From positions 1 to 40,432 of the forward strand of contig JAHBTC010000012.1 in the NCBI GenBank assembly GCA_019638835.1: a stretch of DNA of 40,432 bases, in the 5' to 3' direction. Shown piece after piece: positions 1 to 30,267 of this stretch. Each line of letters opens with the position of its first letter. The stretch's first letter is position 1. Source of the DNA: Fimbriimonadaceae bacterium. Its GTDB lineage: Bacteria; Armatimonadota; Fimbriimonadia; Fimbriimonadales; Fimbriimonadaceae. A model generated the notes under the pieces. It was not told the origin of the DNA and searched no databases. It was given only the letters and a program-made list of their open reading frames with translations. A program made the position numbers and the translations under genes.

Positions 1-2
1 AA

Positions 3-980
3 ATTGCTCGCAATCCTGATCGAGCCGAGCAAACGCGAAGGCGGTATCAAATCAGCCGGCCCGTTATGATGCGGGTGGCTGAGGCAAAGTTGCTGATAGC
101 GGAAGGAAAGGAATCGGAGGGTCTCGAACTCTTGAAGCAAGTTGCGGAGAGAGAAGCCACGGCCCGCGAGAACAACCAGATCGCGAACGACCCGCCGAAC
201 GATCCTTGGCCGACGATGCGCTTGGTGGCGGACGAGTTCTTGCGAACCGGTGATACGGCAGCGGCAATCACATCCTACGAAAAGGCTCTGTCGCAAGAGC
301 CCAACGACGCATGGTGCCTCGCAGGACTAGCCAAGGCGCACGTTGCCGCCGGCAACACGGACCGAGCCCGAGAGTTTGCGGGCCGTTTCCTCGCGGTTTG
401 GAGCGGAGCGGATCGAAGCCTGCCCTTGGTCAGAGAAGTTCTTGCTCTGCGGTTGAATGCGACACCCCGTGCCGTGACTCCGCGGCCCGAAAGAGTGTAT
501 GTGCCGTCCGATTTGGATGAGATTGGGCCAAGCAACTGGCGTCCGTTCCAAGCGCCAATATTGGATTGCGTGGACACCGAGGGGCGCCGGGTGCAATTGA
601 CGGACTTCCGAGGCAAGAACGTGTTGCTCGTCTTCTATCTTTCAGACCGGTGCGTTCACTGCATGGAGCAGTTGGGGGCAATCAACGATCGGCTAGACGA
701 GTTTGGTGATGAGAACACGGTGGTTCTTGGCGTGAGTGCAACGGCTCCGGAGAAAAACCGAGAATCACTTGTCTTGGCGCCCTTTGATGTCACTTTGCTC
801 TCAGACGTCAACCATGAAAATGCGCGGCGTTTTGCGAGTTACGATGACTTCGAGGAGATGGAGCTCCACGCGACGATCCTGATTGATTCGGAGGGGCGGG
901 TGCGGTGGAAGCGCTCCGGCGGCGACCCGTTCGGCGATGTTGACTTCTTACTTCGAGAGATTCGTCGTTGGGGCCGGTGA
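3..980 (+). CDS. TPR and thioredoxin-fold (AhpC/TSA-like) protein, 5' end cut off by window
   Basis: The frame is open to the first base of the window, so the true start lies upstream; the first ATG in frame is at 66. The N-terminal half is helical and carries TPR-like repeats (a clear one near bases 230-370 with the pattern GDTAAAITSYEKALSQEPND). The C-terminal half, from about base 540, is a peroxiredoxin/TlpA-like thioredoxin fold: a 'FRGKNVLLVFY' strand followed by Cys-Val-His-Cys at bases 651-662, where a redox-active CxxC is expected. Family knowledge suggests a thiol-disulfide or peroxide-reducing role linked to protein-protein contacts by the TPRs. The substrate cannot be told, and no signal peptide is visible because the start is missing. 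The gene ends just before a tRNA-derived repeat and has no operon partner in the window. Confidence 0.8.
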   Translation: MARNPDRAEQTRRRYQISRPVMMRVAEAKLLIAEGKESEGLELLKQVAEREATARENNQIANDPPNDPWPTMRLVADEFLRTGDTAAAITSYEKALSQEPNDAWCLAGLAKAHVAAGNTDRAREFAGRFLAVWSGADRSLPLVREVLALRLNATPRAVTPRPERVYVPSDLDEIGPSNWRPFQAPILDCVDTEGRRVQLTDFRGKNVLLVFYLSDRCVHCMEQLGAINDRLDEFGDENTVVLGVSATAPEKNRESLVLAPFDVTLLSDVNHENARRFASYDDFEEMELHATILIDSEGRVRWKRSGGDPFGDVDFLLREIRRWGR

Positions 981-1031
981 GGTCTTCTTGAGGTTGCTTT
1001 ACTGAGGTCACGTTCAGAAGAACTAAAACTT

Positions 1032-1080
1032 TGGTGGAGATGATGAGATTCGAACTCACGACCTCTGCAGTGCGATTGCA
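1032..1080 (-). repeat. 49-bp duplicate of the 3' part of tRNA-Ala (att-like, attL/attR partner)
   Basis: These 49 bases are identical, base for base, to 3202-3250, the 3' portion of the intact tRNA-Ala gene (anticodon loop through CCA). Identity stops at 1081, where the rest of the tRNA (D arm, 5' acceptor) is absent, so this is a remnant and not a functional tRNA. An orphan tRNA 3' end in direct orientation at the far side of a small gene block is the classic footprint of tyrosine-recombinase integration into a tRNA gene. Confidence 0.85.
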
Positions 1081-1188
1081 AACTCGACAGGCTCAAAATG
1101 CCAAAATTAGGTTCATGAAGTGGGTCATTTCGGGCCAACCAGTGGCATCTCGTTTAGGAACCTGCGTAGGAACCTCAGGGAACTTTGC

Positions 1189-1311
1189 CTAAGAGCCGAC
1201 AATGTAGAGCTGGAGCAGCTTCTGCAAGTTGCAGGCCTCCTGCTGCATTGCCTTGAGATCAGCGTAAACAACCTTGCGAGTTTCATTTTGTCTCGCGCTT
1301 TGCGACCTCAT
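1189..1311 (-). pseudogene. Frameshifted C-terminal continuation of the upstream small peptidase-like gene
   Basis: In a different minus-strand frame from the gene at 1283-1594 there are 40 codons from an ATG at 1311 to a TAG at 1189. They encode a protein-like helical tail (ETRKVVYADLKAMQQEAC, then NLQKLLQLYIVGS). The upstream frame stops at 1283 within a helical, Lys/Glu-rich stretch (NVANEVAKRETK), so the two read naturally as one polypeptide broken by a +1 shift near 1283-1290. It could instead be a tiny separate cistron, but no ribosome binding site is obvious. The site (AAA TGA A) does not look like a known programmed frameshift, so mutation or assembly error is more likely. Confidence 0.4.
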
Positions 1312-1594
1312 TGGCCACGTTTTCAAGGTGTATGGCGACCTTGCTTGCCTCTGCTTTTGCCTCGTTGGCTGTCGGGTTCTTCGCTGCCCCGAAGTTCAAA
1401 CCTATACAGACAGCCCATGCTCTGGAACCAGGATGTGGATGTTCGTTGGGTTTCCAATCCGGTTTTCCAAGCTCAATCGCAAAAGGGACCAGGGGGAGGA
1501 AGTTAATGTCAGTAGTCTGGAGGCTGCGCCCGATGAAAGCTGCGGCGATGAAGTCAGCCTCCAACTCCATTAAGGTTTTCTTCGCCTGGTTCAA
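1283..1594 (-). CDS. Small protein resembling the C-terminal part of a zinc peptidase
   Basis: 103 codons whose ATG overlaps the stop of the QueD-like gene as ATGA (1591-1594), a typical translational-coupling arrangement that supports it being a real gene. Near its start it has E-L-E-A-D, and about 40 residues later H-P-H-P-x-x-R. This order (ExEAD then HPxxxxR) is seen after the HEXXH helix in M48-like and related zinc metallopeptidases, where the E contributes the third zinc ligand. No HEXXH is present here, so it cannot be a complete peptidase by itself. The frame ends abruptly in a helical segment and seems to continue in another frame (1189-1311). It may be a decayed fragment; function is not assigned. 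Confidence 0.45.
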   Translation of the reverse strand: MNQAKKTLMELEADFIAAAFIGRSLQTTDINFLPLVPFAIELGKPDWKPNEHPHPGSRAWAVCIGLNFGAAKNPTANEAKAEASKVAIHLENVANEVAKRETK

Positions 1595-2061
1595 GCGGAT
1601 CCGAATTCAGCCCAGGAGTCCGGCGTCTCCCACACGCGGATGCGCTCAAGCTCAACTGAACCGGCCGGAATGGAGTATGTACACCCTGAGCTGGATTGAC
1701 CGAGAAAGCCGTTCCTCAGCGTGGCAGCCACAAAGTCGAACAGGTCCTTGGCGATCACCTCGGTAGTCGGGTCCTGGTTCTGGAAGACAATGAGGCTCTC
1801 GGGATGCACGGCCTTTATCGACTCAAGCATTGGATCGTTTGAGTTCACTGCCATTGAATGATCCAGTCGGTCGATATACTCACAAACCGCTAGTTTCAGG
1901 ACCTTAAAGTCCAGAACCATGTCGTTAGAATCTAGTTCCTCACTGCTGACTACCACTTCGATCCTTCGCGTGTGACCGTGGGGGTAGCGGCAACTTTCCG
2001 AGTGCTTGCTGAGCAGGTGTCCGCTCTCCACCGTGAACATCTTACAGATCCTGTACTTCAT
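1591..2061 (-). CDS. 6-pyruvoyl/6-carboxytetrahydropterin synthase-like protein (QueD family)
   Basis: 156 aa from the ATG at 2061. Zinc ligands fit the family: His15 in a 'VESGH' motif and His28/His30 in 'PHGH'. Cys24 precedes the HxH as the catalytic Cys. Asp67-His68 in 'RLDHSM' complete the triad, and Glu145 in 'WETP' fits the pterin-binding Glu. PTTE-like 'DPTTEVIAKD' follows as usual. The family converts dihydroneopterin triphosphate to 6-carboxytetrahydropterin (queuosine pathway) or pyruvoyl-tetrahydropterin; the exact product here is unknown and no other que genes are near. The chosen start has GGGGAG three bases upstream and matches the usual family N-terminus (MKYRI...). However, the frame is open for 69 more codons up to an ATG at 2268, and this stretch looks protein-like, so an N-terminal extension or a fused upstream remnant is possible. 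The stop is overlapped by the next gene (ATGA). Confidence 0.8.
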   Translation of the reverse strand: MKYRICKMFTVESGHLLSKHSESCRYPHGHTRRIEVVVSSEELDSNDMVLDFKVLKLAVCEYIDRLDHSMAVNSNDPMLESIKAVHPESLIVFQNQDPTTEVIAKDLFDFVAATLRNGFLGQSSSGCTYSIPAGSVELERIRVWETPDSWAEFGSA

Positions 2062-2278
2062 TGAACTCCCCAAGTATCCCTGAAAAGCTCGCTTTTGAGT
2101 CTGGAGTCGCTCGACTTCGACGAACGTTGCCAGCGAGTCTCGCATACGTTGGGGAAACTGAACTGTCGGACCGTACTGACGGAACAACTCGTCTGCTCTG
2201 CGTTGATCATCGGTTCCCGATTGAGTTGCACGGAGCAAAGTGACGGCTAGCAGACCGGCACCTACCATAAAGAGATCA

Positions 2279-2312
2279 TATCCTGCTCACCCATTCAGAG
2301 TAGAGCAGGATA
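2279..2312 (-). terminator. Hairpin after the PEP-CTERM gene
   Basis: A perfect 10-bp inverted repeat (tatcctgctc at 2279-2288, gagcaggata at 2303-2312) with a 14-base loop lies 15 bases downstream of the PEP-CTERM stop on the minus strand. It is followed by a short T-containing stretch (TGATCTCTTT). It may work as a terminator separating the PEP-CTERM gene from the QueD-like gene; the T-run is weak. Confidence 0.45.
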
Positions 2313-2327
2313 GCGTCGAATGGTGAA

Positions 2328-3038
2328 TCAGAGAACAGTGCGTCGACGACGCAAGAGTGTGGCGAGACCGCCGAAGCCGAGCGCCAGTATTGTTGTGGGT
2401 TCGGGCACTGCGTTAAATGCCACATGATCAAACATGAGGCCATCGCTAAAGTTTCCGTTGTTGCCGTTGGCGATTGTAACTGTGTTGATCACGTCGTTCC
2501 CAGTTGCGTCAATCCGCACGTATCCCTGTCGGAGTCCGTTTGTCGTCCAGCCGGCCAAGACGTCTAACAGTCCAACCGGATTTCCGTTTATGAGGATCGT
2601 CGTTTGAAGATCCATCTGTTGGACACTGAATCCGATGCTCGTTGCGGGCGAACCGAACGTGAATGTGGTGAATCCCCAACTGCCAACTTCGCCATAAGGA
2701 AACTCGCGATTTGTCCTCGTGTTGATCAGCCCTCGAGTGCCGTCCCAAGCGCCACCTCCCCCGAGCTGAAACGCATTTCCATGGGTGCTGTCGGTGAATG
2801 GATCGAAGGTGTTTGGAATAGTAGAGGACGGACCGTAGCCACCATTCGGCGAGCTAATCGTCACCTGTAAACCATTGACTAGGTTGACGTCTTCAAAGTT
2901 CTCGATTGTGTATCCAGCTACACCGAGAGTTGTATCGGCGATTCCCCATTGCGTGGGGCCAAATCCAGTAAAGACATATGCGCCATGAGCAGCCGTGGAA
3001 ACGGCTACCGACGCGACGAAGAATAGTTGTACTCTCAC
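2328..3038 (-). CDS. PEP-CTERM sorting-domain exported protein
   Basis: 236 aa from a GTG at 3038. That start is preferred over the longer ATG at 3059 because AGGAG sits seven bases upstream of the GTG, inside the longer frame. The protein begins with a signal peptide (MRVQLFFVASVAVSTAAHG). A middle part rich in Gly, Asn and Thr looks beta-sandwich-like. It ends with a PEP-CTERM signal: VPEPTT, a hydrophobic helix (ILALGFGGLATLL) and four arginines. Such proteins are recognised by an exosortase, cleaved at the PEP motif and placed on the surface or in the extracellular matrix; no exosortase gene is in the window. The gene lies inside the tRNA-bounded island, and its function beyond sorting is unknown. 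Confidence 0.85.
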   Translation of the reverse strand: MRVQLFFVASVAVSTAAHGAYVFTGFGPTQWGIADTTLGVAGYTIENFEDVNLVNGLQVTISSPNGGYGPSSTIPNTFDPFTDSTHGNAFQLGGGGAWDGTRGLINTRTNREFPYGEVGSWGFTTFTFGSPATSIGFSVQQMDLQTTILINGNPVGLLDVLAGWTTNGLRQGYVRIDATGNDVINTVTIANGNNGNFSDGLMFDHVAFNAVPEPTTILALGFGGLATLLRRRRTVL

Positions 3039-3201
3039 TTCGTAACTCCTGTAGGGCACAGAGGGCCCGTCTCAAAATTTTGCTAACTCTGGATTAGACG
3101 AAGAGATGAAATTTCACGAAATGGCACCAATTTTTCACGTAATTTTGAGATACCTGTTAATAATACTGGGAACGAACAGTTAGGTGAGATGTTCCGAGTG
3201 A

Positions 3202-3277
3202 TGGTGGAGATGATGAGATTCGAACTCACGACCTCTGCAGTGCGATTGCAGCGCTCTCCCAGCTGAGCTACATCCCC
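3202..3277 (-). tRNA. tRNA-Ala (anticodon CGC)
   Basis: A 76-nt cloverleaf on the minus strand with encoded CCA. The acceptor stem GGGGATG pairs with CATCTCC and contains the G3:U70 wobble, the alanine identity element. The D arm is GCTC/GAGC, the anticodon stem is CTGCA/TGCAG with loop ATCGCAC (anticodon CGC), the T loop is TTCGAAT and the discriminator is A73. Its 3' 49 nt are duplicated at 1032-1080, so it is probably the integration site of the island on its 3' side. Confidence 0.95.
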
Positions 3278-3296
3278 ACGGGTGCTGGAACCGGGG

Positions 3297-3325
3297 ATTA
3301 TACATCCGCGCCGAACCCGCGCCAA
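3297..3325 (-). promoter_or_regulatory. Promoter of tRNA-Ala
   Basis: On the minus strand, TTGGCG (3325-3320) and a perfect TATAAT (3302-3297) are separated by 17 bases. The -10 box ends 20 bases before the tRNA 5' end at 3277, the spacing expected for a sigma-70-type promoter of a stable RNA gene. Confidence 0.7.
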
Positions 3326-3336
3326 GGTACCGCCCA

Positions 3337-6300
3337 GTGCCGTATCATGGTCAGGTGTTCGTTGCCGCCGCCATGCTGACACTTGCCGCCGATACGAGTC
3401 AAATCGTCCCCCAGCAACTTCGGTGCGAGAGCCTCGTGAACCCCGTGGTGATCGAAAGGCGAACGCCCGATTTCAGTTGGAAGTTACGTCCCGCCCAGCC
3501 AGGGTTGAGGAACTTGCGTCAGACGGCATACCAACTTATTGTCGCCAGCGACGCCAGCCGATTGGCGCGAGGCGTAGGCGATCTCTGGGATTCCGGGCAG
3601 GTGAATTCAAGCAACACTTATGCGGTCACCTATGGAGGTAAGCCCCTTGGTTCGCGTCTCAATTGTTGGTGGTCAGTGCGAGTTTGGGATCAAGAAGGCA
3701 GACCTTCAGGATGGAGTGCACCTGCATCATTTGGAACGGGACTTGACCGTAGCGACTGGAAAGCAAAATGGATCGGTGGGCACCGGGTTGAACCGGATTC
3801 GGCGTTCCACGAAGCAGGTTGGATGTGGGCCAATGATGGAGCGTTCGGACAAAGTCCCGCCGCAAAGCATACATTCGTCCGCAACTTCGAGATTGACCCC
3901 CTAGAGTTGAAATCGGCCGTGTTGCATATCACAGCCGATGATCAGTTTTCGGTTGAAGTGAACGGCAAGTGGGCGGGCGCAAGCGACGGAAGAACCGATG
4001 CTTGGAAGCGACCGCAAGCGATCGCGATTCTGGGATTTCTCAGGCCCGGATCGAACGTGATTCGCATCCATGCTGAGAACGGTAGCCTTGGATATGCGGG
4101 GGTGCTTGCGGCGCTCTTGGTGGAAGGTAAAGACGGAGGCTCCGGCACCTTTATCCAGACTCCAACCAACTGGCAGGTCGAGGGCGCAAACATCGTATCG
4201 CTCGGCGGATATACGATGGCCCCGTGGGGCACGCTCCGCCCGACCGATTCTCCTCGAGCGGAGTACTTCCGCCGCTCTTTCCAAGTCGACGGTGATATCC
4301 AGCGAGCCATCCTTTACGTAACCGCGAAAGGGCTCGTTGATCCTTATCTCAATGGAGAGCGAGTCAGTGACGAGTTGTTCACCCCCGGATGGACTGACTA
4401 CGAGCATCGCATAGAATACAAAGCCTTTGACCTGACTTCACGACTCCAGAATGGTGAGAACGTGCTCGGAGCAATTCTGGGTGATGGTTGGTACGCGGGC
4501 TCAATCGGCTGGCTCGCACAGCGCTATCACTACGGGTCGGACATTGGCATCTTGGCGCAACTAGAAGTCACTTACACCGACGGCCGACGGCAGACTGTTG
4601 CCTCCGACCATACGTGGCAAAACGGAGAAGGCGGAGTCCGCCAACAAGACTTCTTAATGGGAGAGGTTTTCGATGCTCGCCTCGAGCCTAAAGGCTGGTC
4701 TTCAGCCGGGTTCGCGGCGGATGATTGGCGGGTTCCTGTAGAGCAACCCGCATTTCCTCATGCCATCCAAGCATTTACGAGCAACCCAGTGCGAGAGTAC
4801 CGGGCGCTGTCACCGGTGCAGATCAAAGAAATTGCCTCAGGCGTATACGTTGCTGATTTCGGTCAGAACTTGGCGGGATTCTGCCACTTGCGTCTCGAAG
4901 AGCCAAGTGGTCAGTCGGTCACGATCCGTCACGGCGAAACGCTGAATCCGGATGGCACGCTTTACACCGCGAACCTGCGTCTCGCTCGTGCGACCGATGT
5001 CTACATCTCCGATGGTCAACGATCCGAATGGACGCCGCGGTTTACGTTCCATGGCTTCCGATACGTGGAAGTGACCGGCCTCTCTGCCGGGCTCAAACCG
5101 GAAATGATAGAGGCCGTTGCGATTAGCAGTGACACGCCCGAGGTGCGGCACTTCGCGACTTCAGATCCAATGATCAACCAACTAGCGAGTAACGCGTGGT
5201 GGACGCAGAAGATGAACTTCATCGATGTCCCCACGGACTGCCCGCAACGGGATGAACGTCTTGGCTGGACGGGGGACGCGCAGGCGTATATCCGAACGGC
5301 GGCACTGTACTCGGATGTCCAGCCATTCTTCAACCGTTGGCTAGTCGCACTCGACGATGGCCAAAGAGCCGACGGGAACTACCCGACGGTCGCTCCGCTC
5401 AAGGTTTCTGGCGACGATGGCGGACCCGCGTGGGCCGACGCCGGCGTCATTTGTCCGTGGCAGGTTTATGAAATCTACGGCGATAAACGTCAACTTGCCG
5501 CCTCGTATCCGGGAATGAAGCGATTCGTTGAGTTTTGCCGTGCACGGTCAGGTGATGACTACCTGCCTCCGGACGATTTCCACTGTTTTGGTGACTGGCT
5601 CAGCATCAACGCGAACACTCCGAAAGAAGTGATCTATCAAGCCTATTTCATTGGAAGTACACAAATCCTTGCGGATTCTGCGGAGTTGCTTGGGCGTAAC
5701 GACGAAGCCGCGAGTTACCGCGACCTCGCAGCAAAGTTGAAAAAGGCGTTCATCGACGCATACGTTTCATCCGACGGACGAGTGAAGGGAGATACGCAAT
5801 GCGGATATGTTTTGGCCCTCGGATTTGATATTCTCGATGAAGCCGGAGCGAAGAAGGCGGCTGACAATCTTGTGGCGGACATTGAAGGACGGGGGTGGCA
5901 CCTGTCCACGGGATTTGTCGGAACCCGTGACCTAATGTACGTCTTGTCAAAGATTGGTCGCAACGATGTCGCATTTCGGTTGCTCCACAACAAGACGTTC
6001 CCGTCGTGGGGGTTTGAAATTGAAAACGGAGCGACGACGATTTGGGAGCGATGGGACGGCTGGACGCCCGAGCGTGGGTTTCAAGACGTCGGCATGAATT
6101 CGTTTGCTCACTACGCTTATGGCGCCGTTATGGGTTGGGTGTTCGAGACTGTAGGGGGCATTACGCCGCTTGAACCGGGTTTCGGTCGCATTCGGATTGC
6201 CCCACAATTTGATCCTCACCTAACTTGGGCCGATACGAGTTACGACTCAATACGCGGTTCAATCCGTTGTCGTTGGGAGCGCATCGGGGACACAGTGAAT

Positions 6301-6420
6301 GTCGAAGTGGAGGTGCCGCCCAATGTGGAGGCCGTGATTGAAATCGGAGCCGAAAAACAGACTGTTGGCTCGGGGCATCATACGTTTACGGCAATGGTGC
6401 CGAAGATGAGGTTGCCCTAG
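3337..6420 (+). CDS. Alpha-L-rhamnosidase, glycoside hydrolase family 78
   Basis: 1,027 aa, full length for the family. It begins with a short hydrophobic segment (QVFVAAAMLTLAA) that may be a signal peptide. Fibronectin-like and beta-sandwich domains (Bac_rhamnosid_N type) fill the first half. The (alpha/alpha)6 catalytic domain follows, with the hallmark CPQRDERLGWTGD at residues 635-647 (Glu640 is the likely general acid) and TTIWERWDGW at 900-909 (Glu904 the likely base). The C-terminus is a beta-sandwich. The family cuts terminal alpha-L-rhamnose from plant or bacterial polysaccharides and glycosides by an inverting mechanism. The annotated start is a GTG at 3337 with only a weak upstream AAGG, so another nearby start is possible. 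It stands alone between the tRNA-Ala promoter and a convergent gene cluster three bases away. Confidence 0.93.
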   Translation: MPYHGQVFVAAAMLTLAADTSQIVPQQLRCESLVNPVVIERRTPDFSWKLRPAQPGLRNLRQTAYQLIVASDASRLARGVGDLWDSGQVNSSNTYAVTYGGKPLGSRLNCWWSVRVWDQEGRPSGWSAPASFGTGLDRSDWKAKWIGGHRVEPDSAFHEAGWMWANDGAFGQSPAAKHTFVRNFEIDPLELKSAVLHITADDQFSVEVNGKWAGASDGRTDAWKRPQAIAILGFLRPGSNVIRIHAENGSLGYAGVLAALLVEGKDGGSGTFIQTPTNWQVEGANIVSLGGYTMAPWGTLRPTDSPRAEYFRRSFQVDGDIQRAILYVTAKGLVDPYLNGERVSDELFTPGWTDYEHRIEYKAFDLTSRLQNGENVLGAILGDGWYAGSIGWLAQRYHYGSDIGILAQLEVTYTDGRRQTVASDHTWQNGEGGVRQQDFLMGEVFDARLEPKGWSSAGFAADDWRVPVEQPAFPHAIQAFTSNPVREYRALSPVQIKEIASGVYVADFGQNLAGFCHLRLEEPSGQSVTIRHGETLNPDGTLYTANLRLARATDVYISDGQRSEWTPRFTFHGFRYVEVTGLSAGLKPEMIEAVAISSDTPEVRHFATSDPMINQLASNAWWTQKMNFIDVPTDCPQRDERLGWTGDAQAYIRTAALYSDVQPFFNRWLVALDDGQRADGNYPTVAPLKVSGDDGGPAWADAGVICPWQVYEIYGDKRQLAASYPGMKRFVEFCRARSGDDYLPPDDFHCFGDWLSINANTPKEVIYQAYFIGSTQILADSAELLGRNDEAASYRDLAAKLKKAFIDAYVSSDGRVKGDTQCGYVLALGFDILDEAGAKKAADNLVADIEGRGWHLSTGFVGTRDLMYVLSKIGRNDVAFRLLHNKTFPSWGFEIENGATTIWERWDGWTPERGFQDVGMNSFAHYAYGAVMGWVFETVGGITPLEPGFGRIRIAPQFDPHLTWADTSYDSIRGSIRCRWERIGDTVNVEVEVPPNVEAVIEIGAEKQTVGSGHHTFTAMVPKMRLP

Positions 6421-30172: not shown

Positions 30173-30267
30173 TGGCGGGAGCGTGTAGGAATCGAACCCA
30201 CCCGACGCCGCAAAGCGCCACACACGGTTTTGAAGACCGGGAGAGACACCAGCCCCCATCCGCCCCC
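30173..30267 (-). tRNA. selC: tRNA-Sec (selenocysteine, anticodon TCA)
   Basis: A 95-nt gene, the length of E. coli tRNA-Sec, with encoded CCA and discriminator G73. The anticodon loop is CTTCAAA (anticodon TCA), a very long variable arm lies between the anticodon and T arms, and the T arm holds GGTTCGATTCC. The acceptor GGGGGCGG pairs with ACGCTCCC over seven bases (one G-T), and the eighth position is a G-A mismatch. The T stem has five pairs (GTGGG/CCTAC), giving a length close to the 8/5 bacterial form. It reads UGA as selenocysteine when SelB and a SECIS are present. No sel genes or selenoprotein are visible in this window. Confidence 0.88.

Follow-up and report, generated by a model that had tools for sequence, protein, structure and literature searches.

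The segment beside the tRNA-Ala(CGC) gene in the analysed window (the whole stretch of DNA under study, 40,432 nt), called here the focal island, is a genuine integration scar at the 3' end of that gene. With a probability of about 0.7, it represents a decayed integrative element that is no longer able to excise, rather than an intact satellite. The focal genome, which contains this stretch, is a draft of 2.74 Mb in 207 contigs with 97.8% completeness. The locus has the following features.

1032-1080, minus strand: distal att copy, the displaced tRNA 3' end, matching the gene at 49/49 positions
1081-1175 (~95 bp), minus strand: distal attachment arm, type B; arm plus fragment 75-79% identical to six other genomes
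1107-1114, minus strand: inner arm motif GAACCTAA, with AACCT invariant in 7/7 type B arms
1153-1174, minus strand: arm-type repeat GGTTCCTA-CGCA-GGTTCCTAAA, presumed arm-binding site of the integrase, single copy in the focal genome
1283-1594, minus strand: 103-aa ORF, overlapping the stop of the PTPS gene by 4 nt; no family match
1591-2268, minus strand: PTPS/QueD-like (6-pyruvoyl-tetrahydropterin synthase) gene (PF01242, E 2e-26; PHROG 2389)
2328-3059, minus strand: gene for a PEP-CTERM exported protein (PF07589)
3060-3201, minus strand: tRNA-proximal end of the island, the expected place of the proximal arm; no recognisable arm
3202-3277, minus strand: intact tRNA-Ala(CGC), the integration target (ARAGORN); its last 49 nt (3202-3250) form the proximal repeat copy
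3236-3250, minus strand: predicted core TGCA-ATCGCAC-TGCA, a 7-nt anticodon loop inside the anticodon-stem inverted repeat

An earlier note on this DNA had described an exact 49-base repeat of tRNA-Ala in the same orientation with three minus-strand genes between the copies, and this is confirmed by ARAGORN, a repeat search and the ORFs. The copies at 1032-1080 and 3202-3250 are 100% identical over 49 nt, comprise the 3' part of the tRNA including CCA, and begin within the anticodon stem. The second-best direct repeat within positions 1-6000 has just 24 nt at 79% identity, which excludes a chance origin of the 49-nt repeat. The 2.2-kb repeat-bounded region stands as described, with the refinement that the inserted unit itself measures 2,121 bp (1081-3201), 3202-3277 being the tRNA gene proper. 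The GC content of the island is 52%, compared with mostly 55-60% on both sides. On the element strand the order is tRNA, PEP-CTERM gene, PTPS gene, 103-aa ORF, distal arm and tRNA fragment. ORF and family searches detected no recombinase among the three ORFs between the att copies, as the earlier note had said, and no other integration or transfer genes in the island. The core is most simply read from the sequence as the anticodon stem-loop CTGCA-ATCGCAC-TGCAG with a 7-nt overlap between inverted repeats, where the crossover would take place; such an overlap at the anticodon stem-loop is usual for tyrosine integrases at tRNA genes. Elsewhere in the window, a tRNA-SeC gene (anticodon TCA) lies at 30173-30267 on the minus strand.

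The same tRNA site was compared across the order, with 41 genomes searched for the tRNA and 113 for the distal end (144 bp). Fragments of 44-50 nt from the 3' end of tRNA-Ala(CGC) were found in the focal genome and in 11 others (G008, G011, G019, G026, G038, G044, G046, G050, G064, G067 and G077). On contigs that hold both the gene and fragments, the latter are downstream and in the same orientation; this recurrence identifies the tRNA as an integration hotspot with tandem arrays, several of which sit in single-contig genomes (G008, G011, G019, G067). A large serine recombinase gene directly follows the distal fragment, its 3' end running into the fragment, at L083:10562-12115 (G011) and L212:2007-3566 (G077). 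In two other arrays tagcaacctgttgtccatt, perhaps part of a site-targeting IS, starts directly after the CCA of the last fragment (L089 after 10574 in G019; L213 after 8214 in G067), and downstream in G067 1.2 kb of DNA match part of the first G019 unit at 98.8% identity.

In two genomes of the same genus, G001 and G002, the tRNA is present and its 5' neighbour gene is conserved, but neither the island nor a comparable displaced fragment is found; G001 has a partial tRNA repeat of 30 nt. The empty tRNA-Ala site that the earlier note proposed to look for in relatives is therefore only partly borne out: the island is absent and the 5' neighbour kept, but the 3' flank in both genomes differs from the focal one, and the focal 3' flanking gene is absent from them, so that a strict empty site is not shown. 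A collinear empty site was considered and rejected, since the one 3'-side gene of G001 that was tested has no ortholog in the focal genome (best 37%). The 5' side of the focal locus has changed too, as an alpha-L-rhamnosidase gene (3337-6420) separates the focal tRNA from the methyltransferase gene that directly adjoins the tRNA in G001 and G002.

It is the distal arm that makes an element end recognisable in what would otherwise be a mere repeat. Islands at this tRNA in six further genomes of the order have the conserved motif GGTTCCTA-N4-GGTTCCTAAA at their distal ends, and the focal distal end (144-145 bp) aligns with those of G011, G008, G067, G038, G046 and G077; both GGTTCCTA boxes and AACCT are unchanged throughout. 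Together with the 49/49 repeat, this arm supports the proposed integration at the tRNA 3' end with a displaced fragment. Type B distal arms consist of GGTTCCTA-N4-GGTTCCTAAAC, about 40 nt, AACCTAA, about 28 nt, and TGCAATCGCAC of the anticodon region; type A arms consist of an inverted repeat GACCTCTGCA/TGCAGAGGTC, sometimes varied, followed by TTAGGTTCAAAA; the proximal consensus is CCA-gattcaaatgaacctaaatGGTTCCTA-N5-GGTTCCTAAAC. Homology of the displaced fragments begins at tRNA position 28 for type B and 32 for type A. The TGCAGAGGTC inverted repeat of type A arms (e.g. L082 before 376-420) equals the tRNA segment near the crossover and possibly provides extra core-like sites.

A search of 121 genomes with the pattern GGTTCCTAN{4,5}GGTTYCTAAA returned 28 matches, spread over 11 genomes; the reversed control had none. 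The focal genome has exactly one match, at 1153-1174, at the distal end of the island. Placed matches adjoin tRNA-Ala(CGC) or its fragments, except for two at tRNA-Val(GAC); G011:C1:866952 was left unplaced. The two exceptions are in G019 (C1:342927; L138, L113) and G066 (L110), and this arm motif beside tRNA-Val(GAC), accompanied in G019 by a 75% identical integrase, means that the family also uses a second tRNA with a similar anticodon stem layout. Viral contigs contain one match, and further matches exist outside Armatimonadota (Vibrio, a Betaproteobacteria MAG and others), some being expected by chance in a large collection.

The two ends of the focal island differ in preservation. The distal arm is as similar to the other type B arms as those are among themselves, with no decay at that end. 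The proximal arm motif, which nearly all other units have beside the tRNA, is not recognisable, the best fit having 7/17 mismatches, no better than shuffled sequence; when the region was aligned to 19 proximal arms, p was about 0.06 (mean score) and 0.09 (best score). On these values a decayed but recognisable proximal arm is not claimed, and the faint resemblance (p about 0.06) may reflect a diverged arm.

Comparison of the units at this tRNA revealed two classes. Integrase-bearing units of about 28-29 kb open with the gene for a 405-aa tyrosine integrase (PF00589), which lies no more than about 70 bp from the proximal fragment, and terminate in type B arms (G011, G008, G067 and G038; in G046 inferred across two contigs). 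The unit in G011 also encodes a small HTH protein (possible Xis), a replication-relaxation protein, a TraD/TrwB-like ATPase, ArdC, a serine recombinase, DNA methylase/restriction genes and helicases. Among G011, G038 and G046, members of three different families, the integrase is 99% identical, and it has 75-80% identical relatives in G067, G008 and G019. It is absent beside the focal tRNA, and the best matches in the focal genome (21-27%) identify no cognate integrase, an absence that is not absolute because this genome is a 97.8% complete draft.

Integrase-less units (n=13) span 1.58 to 10.2 kb, have canonical proximal and type A distal arms, and form tandem stacks; absence of the integrase was established by PF00589 search (G008, G011, G019, G038, G044, G046) or integrase search (G067, G026). 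The cargo of those examined is mostly metal-resistance genes, including copper-type YHS/P-type ATPase genes, a heavy-metal P-type ATPase with an RND efflux system, and MerT/ArsR genes. The smallest complete unit, of 1.58 kb with both arms (G008 C1:2321524-2323103; L085:17525-19104), encodes a MerR regulator and a thioredoxin-like protein. Tandem units of this class lie between tRNA-Ala(CGC) and the integrase element at L081:1412-20366 (G011), L221 (G067) and L084-L085 (G008). G067 and G008, which are of different genera, share 99.87% identity over the 19.4 kb that run from the tRNA through the second integrase-less unit, whereas their upstream flanks do not match and their integrase elements match piecewise at about 91-93%. 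This argues for recent movement of the integrase-less units, in cis or in trans, although for this pair an assembly exchange between co-occurring populations is a residual possibility. The closest parallel to the focal island is a 6.0-kb unit in G077 whose distal arm is of type B and whose proximal arm is divergent; it lacks a cognate integrase, and its five genes in a row include two metallophosphoesterases and a YHYH protein. The element family was seen here only in Armatimonadota, with metal-resistance cassettes stacked at one tRNA.

Since integrase-bearing units end in type B arms and the 13 integrase-less ones in type A arms, the type B arm of the focal island points to descent from type B elements. 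The ancestor entered tRNA-Ala(CGC), presumably through a tyrosine-recombinase crossover in the anticodon loop; as the anatomy and the comparison show, integration re-made the 3' half of the tRNA and displaced the old one to 1032-1080. Like other type B elements, this ancestor would have encoded the 405-aa integrase and a possible Xis as well as transfer-related functions, and its distal arm would have been retained, while the proximal arm, the integrase and most of the body were presumably lost by deletion or replacement. The remainder would comprise a small ORF, two genes of host type and a distal att site that looks intact; in a remnant predicted to be unable to excise, this site could serve at most as a landing place for another element. 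Excision by tyrosine recombinases of this class normally needs arm sites on both sides; with one recognisable arm, the focal island is predicted to be stuck and its mobilisation in trans is unlikely. Thus, of the two possibilities raised initially, a remnant or an island mobilised in trans, the former is retained and the latter disfavoured by the unrecognisable proximal arm and the missing cognate integrase. The same observations (7/17 mismatches, p about 0.06, no cognate integrase) fail to support the suggestion of an intact, very small satellite, an idea that holds elsewhere in the family for the 1.58-kb unit of G008. Several observations count against a decayed remnant, namely the 49/49 identity of the fragment, the undecayed distal end, and the 2 kb of contents that match no type B element body seen here. 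In addition, the G077 unit, with its type B distal arm, coherent operon and no integrase, suggests that type B units lacking an integrase may form a genuine class of their own and not be wreckage.

The contents bear on how the remnant arose. The PTPS/QueD-like protein scores below the QueD equivalog cut-off, and its start is probably an internal Met at about 2061, because similarity to relatives begins there. Its relatives (51-66%) occur in 13 family members at unrelated loci, and those of the PEP-CTERM protein (50-75%) occur in eight genomes, also at unrelated loci; no linkage of the two to each other was seen in the clade. PTPS of the focal type is absent from G001 and G002, and G002 has a PEP-CTERM gene, but at another locus. 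Both had been put forward as unusual element cargo (a pterin synthase-like gene, a PEP-CTERM protein); their relatives at unrelated clade loci mark them instead as ordinary host-type genes, and the contents look, by similarity, like genes of the host clade that were carried as cargo or acquired later. Cargo common to related elements was rejected, as tblastn of the focal island proteins against the island loci gave no match. A PEP-CTERM gene adjoining tRNA-Trp in G073 was also considered as tRNA-targeted cargo and set aside as coincidence, with no tRNA-Trp fragment within the 15 kb read.

One alternative, which we regard as unlikely, assumes two successive events: most of an integrated type B element disappeared, and an unrelated recombination then brought the PEP-CTERM and PTPS genes into the space between the tRNA and the old distal arm. 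It would account for contents that are linked neither to element bodies nor, in relatives, to each other, and for an arm missing on exactly the side where new DNA would enter; however, neither insertion-sequence ends nor second repeats are seen in 1-6000, and the outcome is hard to distinguish from original cargo of the element. Improbable as well is a minimal integrase-less unit (CIME or satellite) of 2.1 kb with host-type cargo that becomes mobile once a cognate integrase arrives. The intact focal distal arm, the 1.58-kb G008 unit and the recent mobility of integrase-less units between genera speak for it, but the focal proximal arm and a cognate integrase are both missing from view, the distal arm differs from the type A of the other small units, and no second copy was found in the genomes searched with the PTPS and PEP-CTERM proteins. 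A chance or homologous part-duplication of the tRNA gene beside ordinary chromosomal genes fits the host-type genes and the partial repeat in G001, but is very improbable, as the fragment is joined to the arm found at element ends in six further genomes and a simple duplication would lack it.

For the family as a whole, in addition to the decayed remnant preferred for the focal island, we tentatively consider a two-tier system at tRNA-Ala(CGC) in Fimbriimonadales, which is possible but rather doubtful at present. An integrase element with type B distal arms would coexist with distinct integrase-less metal-resistance cassettes, down to 1.6 kb, whose type A arms (TGCAGAGGTC inverted repeat) would be adapted to its integrase acting in trans, and the focal island and the G077 unit would be integrase-less relatives with the helper's own arm type. 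The focal copy is an ordinary scar with little weight alone, and its value lies in leading to this more interesting family. Metal-resistance cassettes that have no recombinase, pass from genus to genus and accumulate in tandem at one tRNA next to an integrase element are the better subject of study, and they offer a natural test of the minimal DNA (1.6 kb plus two arms) for integration of a cassette by another element's recombinase. Narrow literature searches found no paper on mobile elements of Fimbriimonadales.

As a decayed tRNA island, the focal island is of a kind already known. For CIMEs, the described course is that an IME decays, is left with no integration genes and then accretes in tandem (PMC5704250), and the family resembles these in its att-bounded units without integration genes, in tandem at a tRNA with an integrase-bearing element. 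A CIME keeps attL and attR (PMC5704250), whereas the focal island keeps one recognisable arm; moreover, the host here belongs to Armatimonadota and the cargo of the relatives is mainly metal resistance. The focal island acts like a decayed CIME-type member, but falls outside the CIME definition at the proximal att arm. Phage satellites of the PICI type are likewise small, helper-dependent elements; in contrast, no phage genes were seen in the units examined here, the focal island has no phage-type regulator, packaging genes or integrase, and PTPS is its sole phage-shared family. At the ssrA gene of Dehalococcoides, tandem islands lie downstream of one RNA gene with 3' fragments between them, and many have no integration module and were proposed to be cis-mobilizable (PMC3146451). 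The family shares with that system the tandem islands, the 3' fragments as separators and the many units without an integration module, whereas the target there is a tmRNA and the enzyme a serine recombinase (PMC3146451), compared with tRNA-Ala(CGC), a putative anticodon-loop crossover and a tyrosine integrase here.
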